Below the pieces are notes generated by a model, which made no database searches, was not told the DNA's origin, and was given only the letters and a program-made list of their open reading frames with translations. The position numbers and the translations under genes are program-made. Below are positions 46,225-49,862 of a DNA stretch of 52,078 nucleotides, piece after piece. Positions within the stretch are counted from its first letter, which is position 1; each line of letters begins with the position of its first letter. The DNA comes from Caldimicrobium sp. (GTDB lineage: Bacteria > Desulfobacterota > Thermodesulfobacteria > Thermodesulfobacteriales > Thermodesulfobacteriaceae), in NCBI GenBank assembly GCA_009903935.1, contig WYEG01000032.1, forward strand, positions 1 through 52,078. Reading direction: 5' to 3'.

Positions 46225-46423
46225 GAGAAAAGGCTTCCACCCAAGCAACTTGCCAAGTAAATTTTACTTTAAAAAAGGGGTTATTCAACAACTTTAAACC
46301 TGTTTGACTCTTTTTCATAAAATGCTTAGCTGATGCTCCTTTGGTTCTACCTTTTTAAGAGCAAACACAGGAGGAAAGACACAAAGTAGGAGCGAGCGTC
46401 TGCTCATCAGCCTCTCCTACATA

Positions 46424-46451
46424 TTGACAGCTTATCAACTCGGGTTAAGAT
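46424..46451 (+). promoter_or_regulatory. Sigma-70 promoter for the fluoride-riboswitch operon
   Basis: TTGACA (46424-46429) and TAAGAT (46446-46451), spacer 16. Predicted start near 46458, about 10 bases before the aptamer. Confidence 0.65.
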
Positions 46452-46467
46452 TAAAACTAAATATAAA

Positions 46468-46531
46468 GGGGATGGCGTCCCCCGTTAATCGCTCTGGTTC
46501 AACTTTTAGGCCAGAGCTGATGACGCCTACC
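46468..46531 (+). promoter_or_regulatory. Fluoride riboswitch (crcB motif)
   Basis: The RNA folds as GGGG-AUGGCGUC-CCCC (helix and loop, 46468-46483), a linker GUUAAUC, a second helix GCUCUGG/CCAGAGC with loop UUCAACUUUUAGG (46491-46517), and the conserved tail CUGAUGACGCCUAC. GGCGUC in the first loop is complementary to GACGCC in the tail, the pseudoknot of the fluoride aptamer. The order AUGGCGU...GAGCUGAUGACGCCUAC matches known crcB-motif RNAs almost exactly. Immediately downstream CGCCUACCUUCC can pair with the antiporter ribosome binding site GGGAGGUAGGCG (46564-46575), providing a translational on/off switch. It precedes a cation/proton antiporter. Confidence 0.93.
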
Positions 46532-46575
46532 TTCCAAAAAGGTATAATGTTAAAATTTGCTTTGGGAGGTAGGCG

Positions 46576-47733
46576 ATGGAAGAGCTCTGGCTACAAGCTT
46601 TAATCTGGTTCACCTTAGCTCTAATCTCAAGCTTCATCTCCTTTAGGTTAGCCATCTCAGCTGCTCTTATTGAGCTCATAGTTGGCATCGTTGCCGGAAA
46701 CACCATCCACCCTGAGGTCACACCCTGGGTAAACTTCTTAGCAAGCTTTGGTGCTGTCATCCTTACCTTCCTTGCGGGGGCAGAGCTTGAATCTGAAGTT
46801 ATAAAAGCCTACTGGAAAGAGTCTTTAGTTTTGGGCTTCATAAGCTTTTTTGCTCCCTTTTTAGGGGCTTGGGTTGTTACCCAGTTCCTTCTTGGTTGGG
46901 ACTTAAGGCAGGCTCAGCTTGCGGGGATCGCCCTTTCTACTACCTCAGTTGCCGTTGTCTATGCGGTGATGATAGAGAGCGGGCTTAATGAAAGACCACT
47001 TGGGAAGCTCATTTTAGCTGCCTGCTTTGTTACGGACCTTGGAACAGTGATTGCCCTTGGATTACTTTTTGCTGAAATCGGCTTTTACTTTTGGCTCTTT
47101 GCGGTCGTCACTTTGGTAGTCCTTTTTATCCTTCCACCGATTACGAAAAGATACTTTGCTCTGGTTAAGAACCATCCAAGCGAGCCAGAAGTTAAGTTTA
47201 TCTTTGTTATCCTCTGCGCCCTTGCGTTCCTTGCGGTGAAAGGGGGAAGCGAAGCCGTTCTTCCAGCCTATCTCGTAGGGGCGGTTTTGGCAAACCTTTT
47301 CTTAAAAAACAGGGAGCTTGTTAAGCGCTTGAGAGCAGCAACCATTGCCCTTCTTACACCCTTCTACTTCTTAAAGGCAGGAAGCCTCGTTGACCTAAAG
47401 GCAGTTTTAGGAAGCCTGGGAGTCTTGGTCGTTCTCTTCTTAACCAAAACGGTAAGCAAATTCTTGGGTCTCTATCCCGCAGGAATGCTCTTTAAGTTTA
47501 CTCCAAGAATAAACATGTATAACACCCTGCTTATGAGCACCGGTCTAACCTTTGGAACCATCTCCGCACTCTATGGTTTAAGAAACGGAATAATTGATAA
47601 GACCCAGTATTCTCTCCTCGTTGTGACGATTATCCTTACTGCCATCATCCCAACGCTCATTGCCCAAAGCTTTTTCTATCCAAAAAAGGAAGACCTTGAC
47701 AGGTTTGAGAAGAAGACCGAACAAAGGGGGTAA
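46576..47733 (+). CDS. Cation:proton antiporter (CPA2/KefB-NapA-like) under fluoride riboswitch
   Basis: A 385-residue membrane protein with about 12 hydrophobic helices. It has the CPA2 hallmarks: early LIVGIVAGNTIHPEV-like segment, AGAELESEVIKAYWKE, GIALSTTSVAVVYAVM, and the buried acidic residue in ACFVTDLGTVIALGLLF; a lone Asp at this site is typical of electroneutral members. It lacks the C-terminal RCK domain of KefB. It is the first gene of a riboswitch operon, with a strong GGGAGG site that can be sequestered. Antiporters are among genes known downstream of fluoride riboswitches, so it may expel fluoride or restore pH/ion balance during fluoride stress. Confidence 0.9.
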   Translation: MEELWLQALIWFTLALISSFISFRLAISAALIELIVGIVAGNTIHPEVTPWVNFLASFGAVILTFLAGAELESEVIKAYWKESLVLGFISFFAPFLGAWVVTQFLLGWDLRQAQLAGIALSTTSVAVVYAVMIESGLNERPLGKLILAACFVTDLGTVIALGLLFAEIGFYFWLFAVVTLVVLFILPPITKRYFALVKNHPSEPEVKFIFVILCALAFLAVKGGSEAVLPAYLVGAVLANLFLKNRELVKRLRAATIALLTPFYFLKAGSLVDLKAVLGSLGVLVVLFLTKTVSKFLGLYPAGMLFKFTPRINMYNTLLMSTGLTFGTISALYGLRNGIIDKTQYSLLVVTIILTAIIPTLIAQSFFYPKKEDLDRFEKKTEQRG

Positions 47734-47736
47734 GAC

Positions 47737-48156
47737 ATGTTTAAAAAGATCCTTATCGGTTATGATGGCTATGAGGGCTCGCTTTTAGCCTTGGAAAAGG
47801 GGCTACACCTTGCTGAGGAGCTAAAGGCTGAGGTCATTGTTCTCTCTGTGGCAAGCATCCCAGAGTATGCTGAGACCGTATCCGAGGTTGAAGAGGCAAA
47901 GGAGCAGGCGAGGAAATACTACGCTGATGTGCTAAGCGATGTGGAAAGGCTTGTTAAGGGGAAGGACCTTAAGGTCCAAACCTTAATTCGCTTTGGTAAA
48001 CCGGCTGAGGTAATTCTTCATACTGCAGAAGAGATGGGGATAGACCTCATCATCTTAGGTCCAAGCAAATATTCATACTTAAGGAGAAGGATTTTAGGGA
48101 GCACCGCAGACAAGGTGGTAGAAAGAGCCCACTGCTCCGTCCTTATAATGAAATAA
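47737..48156 (+). CDS. Universal stress protein UspA family
   Basis: A 139-residue UspA-domain protein: start KKILIGYDGYEGSLLALEKG, ATP-binding pattern LGPSKYSYLRRRILGSTADK, and end VVERAHCSVLIMK. Usp proteins bind ATP or other ligands and often accompany ion transporters as regulatory partners. It is 3 bases behind the antiporter and 1 base before the MFS gene, so it is part of the fluoride-responsive operon and is a plausible regulator of the antiporter. Confidence 0.94.
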   Translation: MFKKILIGYDGYEGSLLALEKGLHLAEELKAEVIVLSVASIPEYAETVSEVEEAKEQARKYYADVLSDVERLVKGKDLKVQTLIRFGKPAEVILHTAEEMGIDLIILGPSKYSYLRRRILGSTADKVVERAHCSVLIMK

Positions 48157-48157
48157 A

Positions 48158-49357
48158 ATGTCCTTTAAATCTTTAAAAGACTTTAAATCTTTAAAGGACC
48201 CCGAGGTCAAAAAAGCCCTTTACTTTGTCCTCCTCCTTGGTTTGGTTAGCCTCTTTGGGGACATGACCTATGAGGCGGCACGAAGCATCACTGGACCATA
48301 TCTTCTATACCTTGGAGCGACCGCAACGGCGGTTGGCTTCGCCGCAGGGTTTGGCGAATTTATTGGGTATGCCTTAAGGCTTATTTCAGGCTACCTTGCA
48401 GACCGCACTAAAAGATACTGGTTTTTTACCATCTTTGGCTACGGCATAAACCTTTTAGCCATCCCAGCCTTAGCTTTAGCCCCAACCTGGCAGATAGCCA
48501 TGATGCTCATCATTTTAGAAAGGTTTGGCAAAGCTTTAAGGGTTCCGGCAAGGGATACTTTTCTTTCCTACGCCACGATAAAGATAGGACGGGGAATTGG
48601 CTTTGGGTTGCATGAGGCTTTAGACCAAGTCGGAGCCTTGATCGGACCCCTTATCGTATTTTTAGTCTTTTACCTTGGCTTTGGCTACAAAGAGGCTTTT
48701 TCCGTTCTTTTAGCACCAGCCCTTTTAGCCCTAACCTTTCTTTTTATCGCCCGACTTCTCTTTGCAGTTCCAGCAAAGTTTGAAGCCGATACAAAGCAAG
48801 CACAAGTTTTAGAACAGAGGCTACCACGGGATTTTTGGTTCTATGCCTTTGGTATGGGCTTTTTTGCCTTTGGGTTCTTGGACTTTGCCCTCATAAGCTT
48901 TCACTGGCAAAAGGCTAAGGTCCTTGATAAGAATTTGATCCCCTTGCTCTACGCCTTAGCCATGGGTGTTGACGCCATCTCTGCCCTTATCTTGGGTTAT
49001 CTTTATGACAGAATAAAGCTGAAAGTCTTGCTTTTAGCCTTAGTTCTTTCTCTCTGGGCTATTCCTCTTTCTATCCTTGGTGATAAACTTTTGGTTATCC
49101 TTGGGGTTATCCTCTGGGGTATAGGTCTTTCGGCTCAAGAATCGATCGTCCGTGCGACGGTTGCCGAGCTTGTCCCCAAGGAAAGGAGAGGGACTGCCTA
49201 CGGTATCTTCAACGCCCTTTTTGGCGGGTTTTGGTTCTTGGGAAGCTTTTTACTTGGCTTTCTTTATGATTACTCTCCGCTCTTTATGGTGGTTTGCTCC
49301 GTTGTTTTTCAAGCCTTGGCTATACCTTTTGTTATTAAGGTAAAAGTTCGGAAGTAA
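48158..49357 (+). CDS. MFS transporter in the fluoride-riboswitch operon
   Basis: A 399-residue, 12-helix major facilitator with the loop 2-3 motif (GYLADRTKRYWFFT) and GKALRVPARDTFLSYA in the central helices. The closest general type is MFS proteins of undetermined substrate (GDMTYEAARSITGPYL near the N-terminus). An 18-base tandem repeat (48167-48202) encodes KSLKDF KSLKDP at the start, a sign of replication slippage in the first codons. It is the third and last gene of the operon, ended by a hairpin at 49383. Export of a fluoride-related or stress metabolite is a guess. Confidence 0.88.
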   Translation: MSFKSLKDFKSLKDPEVKKALYFVLLLGLVSLFGDMTYEAARSITGPYLLYLGATATAVGFAAGFGEFIGYALRLISGYLADRTKRYWFFTIFGYGINLLAIPALALAPTWQIAMMLIILERFGKALRVPARDTFLSYATIKIGRGIGFGLHEALDQVGALIGPLIVFLVFYLGFGYKEAFSVLLAPALLALTFLFIARLLFAVPAKFEADTKQAQVLEQRLPRDFWFYAFGMGFFAFGFLDFALISFHWQKAKVLDKNLIPLLYALAMGVDAISALILGYLYDRIKLKVLLLALVLSLWAIPLSILGDKLLVILGVILWGIGLSAQESIVRATVAELVPKERRGTAYGIFNALFGGFWFLGSFLLGFLYDYSPLFMVVCSVVFQALAIPFVIKVKVRK

Positions 49358-49382
49358 AGGCGGCGAAATTTAACACCTTGAA

Positions 49383-49404
49383 AGGGCGACCTCTCGGTCG
49401 CCCT
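49383..49404. terminator. Hairpin terminator between convergent genes
   Basis: AGGGCGACC (49383-49391) and GGTCGCCCT (49396-49404) form a perfect 9-bp stem with a 4-base loop. It lies between the MFS gene and convergent slyD and has no run of T on either side, so efficiency is uncertain. Confidence 0.6.
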
Positions 49405-49418
49405 GGCATACCGTTTAA

Positions 49419-49862
49419 TTATTCGTTCAGAATTCGGACGAGCTTAATGCTGCAGTAGAGGTCTTCTCCGGCTAAGGGTGGGTTTAGGTCAAGGGTAATT
49501 TCTTCTTCGGTTACCTCTATTACCCTCGCTGGTATGGTTATTTCACCCTGGGGAGTGTCAAGGATCAAGGAAAGAAGCATACCTGGTTCTGGCTCAACAT
49601 CAAGCTCAAGCCCAGCCCTTGACACTGTCCGGACAAGGTTTTGGTCTTTTGGGCCGAAGGCTTTATCAGAAGGAATGACGACCTCCTTTTCTTCTCCCTC
49701 GGACATCCCTACTACAGCCTCAGACAGACCGGGAATGATCTCTGGCGAGCCAACCTCGAACACAAAGGGCTCAGACTGATAGGTGTCCTCAAACACCTCA
49801 CCCGAGCTCGTCTTCCCAACCAAATGAATGCAAACTACATCACCAACCTGCACTTTACGCAT
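49419..49862 (-). CDS. FKBP-type peptidyl-prolyl isomerase (SlyD-like)
   Basis: A 147-residue SlyD-type FKBP. The FKBP core (VCIHLVGKTSSGEVFEDTYQ, IIPGLSEAVVGMSEGEEKEV) flanks an inserted-in-flap segment (IPSDKAFGPKDQNLVRTVSR), the chaperone part of SlyD proteins. The His-rich metal tail of E. coli SlyD is absent. It catalyses prolyl cis/trans isomerisation in the cytoplasm and assists folding. No leader gene is closely linked; the ATG at 49862 is preceded by AAGGAG-like AAGGAGTTACGG. Confidence 0.93.
   Translation of the reverse strand: MRKVQVGDVVCIHLVGKTSSGEVFEDTYQSEPFVFEVGSPEIIPGLSEAVVGMSEGEEKEVVIPSDKAFGPKDQNLVRTVSRAGLELDVEPEPGMLLSLILDTPQGEITIPARVIEVTEEEITLDLNPPLAGEDLYCSIKLVRILNE

Follow-up and report, generated by a model that had tools for sequence, protein, structure and literature searches.

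What does a fluoride riboswitch serve in a bacterium with neither of the known fluoride exporters? The question was raised by a 52,078-nucleotide contig of Caldimicrobium sp. (WYEG01000032.1 of assembly GCA_009903935.1; hereafter the window), in which a fluoride aptamer precedes genes for a NapA-like CPA cation/proton antiporter (NHX), the universal stress protein UspA and an MFS transporter. Fluoride export in bacteria is attributed to one or other of two protein types, Fluc (CrcB) or CLC-F (PMC11139923), and an earlier note, made from the window sequence alone, had remarked that neither crcB nor a CLC gene lies in it. The locus was followed up computationally, and we think it reasonably probable that the operon is induced by fluoride and serves tolerance of it, NHX occupying the place of CrcB or CLC-F in an organism that lacks the known exporters.

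The remark about the window was found to hold for the whole genome: the search for crcB and clcF proposed in the earlier note returned no PF02537 (CrcB) and no PF00654 (CLC) protein in the 1.56 Mb, 97% complete window genome (G000), the operon included. At this completeness it is unlikely that an exporter was missed, and incompleteness is not at issue for two single-contig relatives (G009 and G015), which carry riboswitch, NHX and UspA in the same arrangement and have no CrcB. No CLC is present in G015, and that of G009 consists of fragments only, one of them with stop codons. The aptamer of the operon is the single RF01734 match in the window genome, and the corresponding element is likewise the sole fluoride riboswitch in both relatives.

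Identity of the aptamer was established with the Rfam fluoride family. The covariance-model check suggested earlier gave 53.0 bits against a cut-off of 34, and the aptamer as first delimited (46468-46531) proved to be the core of the RF01734 match (Table 1). A chance match is ruled out by the E-value of 6e-12 and by conservation beside NHX orthologues. In an alignment of 33 relatives, 94% of the cells of the aptamer helices and pseudoknot were paired, compared with at most 55% when the partners were slid; for the GGCGTC/GACGCC pseudoknot the figure was 98.5%, with changes on both sides, and two-sided pair changes were also seen in helix 1.

Two samples were used to determine how regularly the riboswitch and NHX occur together. 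The first, an NHX search of species genomes, gave 49 fetched loci from 44 genomes; the second comprised 297 genomes drawn evenly from the window's phylum, of which 42 carry NHX and from which 30 loci were fetched. An Rfam scan of 28 loci of the first sample detected a fluoride riboswitch in 27, and a model built from the Rfam-scanned and family loci placed one near NHX in 47 of the 49 (all except L019 and L066). In the second sample a riboswitch was located upstream of NHX within about 2.2 kb in 28 of 30 loci, mostly at 250 nucleotides or less, and one more was found at 4.8 kb. RF01734 was present in 39 of the 42 NHX genomes and in 78 of the 255 others, and UspA adjoined NHX in 25 of the 30 loci.

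Carriers of NHX were comparatively poor in CrcB. Among the 44 genomes of the first sample, whose completeness is unstated, 27 lacked CrcB and 21 lacked both CrcB and a CLC scoring over the cut-off. The CLC-F signatures are GREGT/V and GEVTP (PMC11139923); eight CLCs from six CrcB-less NHX genomes contained neither, so a hidden CLC-F was set aside for this group, though three of the proteins (from G033, G052 and G072) have GREGG or GREGS and remain candidates. In the phylum sample, CrcB was found in 7/42 NHX genomes (17%) versus 124/255 others (49%), with an odds ratio of 0.21 and p = 9e-5 when genomes are treated as independent. Restricting the comparison to riboswitch-bearing genomes gave 7/39 with NHX versus 35/78 without (p = 0.004, under the same treatment). 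The NHX carriers span 27 families, in six of which a carrier also has CrcB. Within the window's own family the cases are few: riboswitch-linked NHX occurred in three of 15 CrcB-less genomes and in none of 15 with CrcB. NHX shares the regulatory position of the Fluc/CrcB channel and the CLC-F antiporter and is unrelated to them in fold, and it tends to be found in genomes that lack CrcB.

These distributions bear on a more conservative explanation, namely that NHX, UspA and the MFS protein are an accessory pH or ion stress response and that fluoride is exported by some other protein encoded elsewhere. It agrees with the published interpretation of riboswitch-linked Na+/H+ antiporters, reported in Baker 2012 and taken as pH homeostasis in the summary of PMC11139923, and NHX does share operons with CrcB at L022, L023 and L124. 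An accessory function predicts co-occurrence with exporters, however, and the NHX-CrcB data show the opposite; moreover, the window genome and its two single-contig relatives have only this one fluoride riboswitch and no known exporter intact. We regard the accessory explanation as decidedly unlikely.

The antiporter was examined by sequence and by predicted structure. Its nearest solved relative is NapA (4bwz, sequence E 3e-14), and a Foldseek search with the AlphaFold model (pLDDT 88) also returned NapA as best match (E 1e-11, TM 0.68-0.80). The CPA2 label given in the earlier note is reasonable, but the CPA2 model TIGR00932 scores NHX at only 102 bits, under its curated cut-off of 238. On the NHX-NapA alignment, Lys295 of NHX corresponds to what we take to be Lys305 of NapA and is invariant in 47 sequences; the presumed Asp156-Asp157 pair of NapA is replaced by Thr/Asn153-Asp154, so that the Asp-Asp pair of electrogenic NapA-type antiporters is not found. 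Four further charged positions (E203, E205, K207 and K/R267) are conserved across the same sequences. NHX thus has the fold and the Lys305 and Asp157 equivalents in common with NapA of Thermus thermophilus (4bwz, 5bz2) and with KefC (8bxg), but differs from NapA in the Thr/Asn at Asp156 and in its subfamily-specific charged residues, and from KefC in having no TrkA-type domain. NHX represents a distinct subfamily.

Two observations on individual NHX proteins may be recorded here. The relative at L032:5001-6125, preceded by a riboswitch of 61.6 bits, carries Asn-Gly rather than Thr-Asp where the ion is presumed to bind, which may reflect either loss of the key aspartate or a sequencing error. 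The window NHX resembles that of L018, from a Hydrogenobacter metagenome-assembled genome (73%), more closely than that of L019, from a Thermodesulfobacteriaceae metagenome-assembled genome (70%); this suggests either a mixed bin or an exchange of the gene among thermophiles.

The conserved residues, together with the distributions, raise the possibility that NHX itself exports fluoride at the expense of the proton gradient, as a third dedicated exporter type with a CPA/NapA fold that replaces Fluc or CLC-F in several bacterial lineages. NHX is nearly always under a fluoride riboswitch, more so than CrcB (RF01734 occurs anywhere in the genome in only 42 of 131 CrcB genomes of the phylum sample); it is anticorrelated with CrcB; 21 of the 44 carrier genomes have neither CrcB nor a CLC; and the site is specific to the subfamily, with Thr/Asn153 for Asp156, invariant Lys295 and conserved K207 and K/R267. 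Against direct export, the Lys305 and Asp157 equivalents are retained, NHX stands beside CrcB in some operons, and to our knowledge CPA-fold proteins of known function transport cations. On balance we consider fluoride export by NHX unlikely; that the protein exchanges cations for H+ and in this way restricts the trapping of fluoride is the likelier mode of action.

Control of NHX was analysed in the leader between the aptamer and the start codon. A 15-nucleotide inverted repeat, CGCCTACCTTCCAAA and TTTGGGAGGTAGGCG, is predicted to form an off-state hairpin; CGCCTACCTTCCAAA overlaps the 3' strand of the pseudoknot, and TTTGGGAGGTAGGCG, which contains the ribosome-binding site, stops right before the NHX ATG at 46576. 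Folding of the leader RNA yields this hairpin at z -4.9, no shuffle being equally good, and the hairpin region alone gives z -4.5; the leaders of the two closest relatives (L068 and L070) are arranged in the same way. Over 34 loci, the pairing score of the aptamer strand with its own leader was 18.2, as against 11.3 (standard deviation 0.39) with shuffled leaders. Among loci with GACGCC as pseudoknot strand, the window and these two relatives carry GGTAGGCG ahead of the start codon; among those with GACTCC, most carry AGGAGT. When leaders were exchanged between the two types, the score of the first type fell to 10.6 (19.1 before the exchange) and that of the second to 13.1 (18.0 before). Pairing between leader and aptamer is absent at some loci (L032 and L040). 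Several microRNA-family matches at 46502-46598 were far under their cut-offs and were discarded as hairpin models scoring the long sequestering hairpin.

With fluoride bound, the pseudoknot would keep strand 46522-46527 and leave the ribosome-binding site free; without fluoride, this strand and its 3' extension would pair with the ribosome-binding site and turn NHX translation off. The riboswitch is accordingly predicted to be a translational on-switch, a type of platform described for some members of the class (PMC13273304), and translation control is the likely mode of the window leader because its hairpin lacks a U run and abuts the AUG. Transcription termination is a common mode for fluoride riboswitches (PMC2864571), and six U come after the same hairpin in L026 and other Verrucomicrobia relatives, making termination possible there. 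No terminator prediction falls between the aptamer and the NHX start codon of the window, and together with the abutting AUG and the missing U run this leaves regulation of the window operon by termination improbable. Compared with the crcB motif as described (RF01734; PMC2864571), the window aptamer is alike in sequence, in its two helices and pseudoknot and in its position right upstream of the first gene; it differs in the predicted direct pairing of the 3' pseudoknot strand with the ribosome-binding site and in the translation-type platform that this implies.

The coordinates and gene calls of the earlier note proved correct (Pfam matches in Table 1). The three genes, all on the + strand, were described there as tightly packed, and gaps of 3 nucleotides (NHX-UspA) and 1 nucleotide (UspA-MFS) bear this out. 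We infer that they are co-transcribed and that their expression depends on fluoride; the tight spacing would probably shut off translation of UspA and the MFS protein together with that of NHX. A G+C-rich hairpin marks the operon end, and a convergent FKBP gene lies beyond it.

Table 1. Position and supporting evidence of the features of the operon (window coordinates).
Feature	Position	Strand	Evidence
Sigma-70-like promoter, TTGACA-16-TAAGAT	46424-46451	+	10/12 consensus matches; alone not above chance
Fluoride riboswitch aptamer	46459-46536	+	RF01734, 53.0 bits, gathering cut-off 34, E 6e-12 (whole window)
Pseudoknot 5' strand, GGCGTC	46474-46479	+	Read from sequence; covariation over relatives
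Pseudoknot 3' strand, GACGCC, also part of predicted sequestering stem	46522-46527	+	
5' arm of predicted off-state hairpin (anti-ribosome-binding site), CGCCTACCTTCCAAA	46524-46538	+	15-nt inverted repeat, 93% complementary
3' arm of predicted hairpin, TTTGGGAGGTAGGCG, containing ribosome-binding site GGGAGG (46564-46569)	46561-46575	+	
NHX, NapA-like CPA cation/proton antiporter, 385 aa	46576-47733	+	PF00999, 128 bits, E 5e-37
UspA, universal stress protein, 139 aa	47737-48156	+	PF00582, 112 bits, cut-off 24, E 6e-32
MFS transporter, 399 aa	48158-49357	+	PF07690 (MFS_1), 129 bits, cut-off 33, E 3e-37
Operon-end hairpin, 9 bp, G+C-rich, AGGGCGACC-TCTC-GGTCGCCCT	~49382-49404	+	Fold of 49371-49420, -21.3 kcal/mol

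The MFS partner had seemed unfamiliar in the earlier note, but it does not make the combination a one-off: the order NHX-UspA-MFS recurs in four other loci (L022, L023, L124 and L123), always downstream of a fluoride riboswitch, and a unique partnership is ruled out. Three of them (L022, L023 and L124; L022 and L125 belong to one genome) read riboswitch-CrcB-DUF190/CBS-NHX-UspA-MFS followed by enolase; L123 has riboswitch-dynamin-like GTPase-NHX-UspA-MFS and no CrcB. MFS genes also occur in other fluoride riboswitch operons, in G021 (L067) and, with CrcB, in G013 (L069). Since gene order and MFS both recur in this way, the window combination is one version of a set of fluoride genes found repeatedly.

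It could be argued from this recurrence, in operons with and without NHX (L067, L069, L022, L023, L123, L124), that export of fluoride is in fact the task of the MFS protein. Its orthologues argue otherwise: MFS is found in 20 of 30 genomes of the window's own family, mostly with no riboswitch nearby, and no MFS stands beside NHX in G009, G015 or most carriers. Foldseek matches of its AlphaFold model (pLDDT 86) are generic MFS proteins only, and comparison of its sequence with the PDB gave no match. We hold this exporter role to be very improbable; being common in the family and mostly not riboswitch-linked, the MFS gene is an optional recruit of the operon.

Several neighbours of the recurring set are recorded as separate observations. 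At L067:6410-8839 and L069:4134-7304 the genes behind the riboswitch encode a small protein that has CxxC pairs at its N-terminus as well as HEAT repeats, a prenyltransferase-toroid-like protein (PF00432) and the MFS protein, while CrcB and DUF190 may be present or absent; homologues of the CxxC/HEAT-repeat protein lie near MFS or NHX in L020, L039, L107 and L119. At L022:3642-4982, within a fluoride riboswitch operon, DUF190 is fused to CBS domains, with CrcB on one side and NHX on the other. The dynamin-like GTPase (PF00350) directly follows its own fluoride riboswitch at L022:815-2676 (-), L023:860-2718 (-), L124:9641-11505 (+) and L123:4512-6556 (+); it is divergent from the CrcB-NHX operon in the first three loci and opens the NHX operon in L123. 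Its homologues lie near NHX at further loci, and no report of such a GTPase as a fluoride-regulated gene was found in the literature searched. In many Verrucomicrobia (L026, L030, L031, L033, L037, L043, L052, L055, L056) a riboswitch-NHX unit, its leader hairpin ending in a U run, keeps a stable chromosomal position, with kdsA-lpt genes on one side and HPr kinase-HPr-ptsI on the other. As many as 11 fluoride riboswitches occur in a single genome of the phylum sample (G345, contigs C58 and C100).

Upstream of the aptamer, the promoter noted earlier does exist as a site, but the five promoter-like sites of the region are not clearly more than the 3.2 (standard deviation 1.8) of shuffled DNA; a real promoter at 46424-46451 is plausible. 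A possible second, decayed aptamer, GTAGGAGAGGCTGATGAGCAGACGCTCGCTCCTAC (46386-46420, - strand, upstream of the operon), was rejected as it only resembles parts of the 3' half of the aptamer, has no Rfam match, and is no more structured than shuffles (z -0.16).

Taken with its regulation, NHX would be a NapA-like cation/proton exchanger in the place of CrcB or CLC-F. From the fold and the weak-acid behaviour of fluoride, its most likely help would be Kef-like: taking in protons against Na+ or K+ out, it would lessen the pH difference that traps fluoride after entry of hydrogen fluoride, and would also keep ion balance. UspA may be a stress or regulatory partner of NHX, and the MFS protein an optional exporter. 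Of the interpretation in the earlier note, a tolerance module under a fluoride riboswitch, in the absence of both CrcB and CLC, is supported; the predicted translational platform and the anticorrelation with CrcB did not figure in it.

Certain points weigh against this explanation. The genomes counted as independent in the NHX-CrcB anticorrelation are related, and among known fluoride exporters the 297-genome comparison covered CrcB. NHX and CrcB occur together in seven genomes, in some of them within a single operon; NHX is therefore more than a substitute, and these cases speak for at least partly separate functions. The two leader types track phylogeny, and the leader-swap result therefore represents few independent events. 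Lastly, Thr/Asn-Asp at the NapA aspartate pair makes the cation and stoichiometry of NHX uncertain, and L032 has Gly at the key Asp.

Parts of the system have precedents. Na+/H+ antiporters are the next commonest riboswitch-associated class after exporters (PMC11139923), K+ transport genes were listed by Weinberg 2010 for the crcB motif (PMC2864571), and uspA belongs to the fluoride-induced operon ppaC-uspA-eno-gpmA-crcB of Enterobacter cloacae FRM (PMC5533749); the earlier statement that antiporters and UspA are reported riboswitch-associated genes was therefore correct. The antiporters summarised in PMC11139923 are likewise under fluoride riboswitches, and here a subfamily is defined that occurs mostly in CrcB-less genomes. 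The Enterobacter operon shares the riboswitch and uspA with the window, and enolase and crcB with relatives of the window cluster, but has no antiporter or MFS; crcB, eno and ppaC are in turn missing from the operon of the window. In the literature searched, outside which most subscription papers such as Baker 2012 fall, no account was found of the NHX-UspA-MFS order, of the ribosome-binding-site platform of the subfamily or of the exporter anticorrelation, and nothing pertinent on fluoride riboswitches linked to MFS proteins or CPA antiporters. What is new is the exporter pattern, antiporters and UspA under fluoride riboswitches having been reported already.

Riboswitch-linked antiporters are treated as accessory in published accounts; NHX, by contrast, appears to stand in for CrcB here and is probably an alternative fluoride defence. 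Genomes that sense fluoride without either exporter type raise the question of how fluoride is survived. Because the NHX subfamily is almost always near a riboswitch, is rarer in CrcB genomes and is present in two single-contig relatives without an intact exporter, the assumption that riboswitch-linked antiporters are pH helpers becomes directly testable with one gene.

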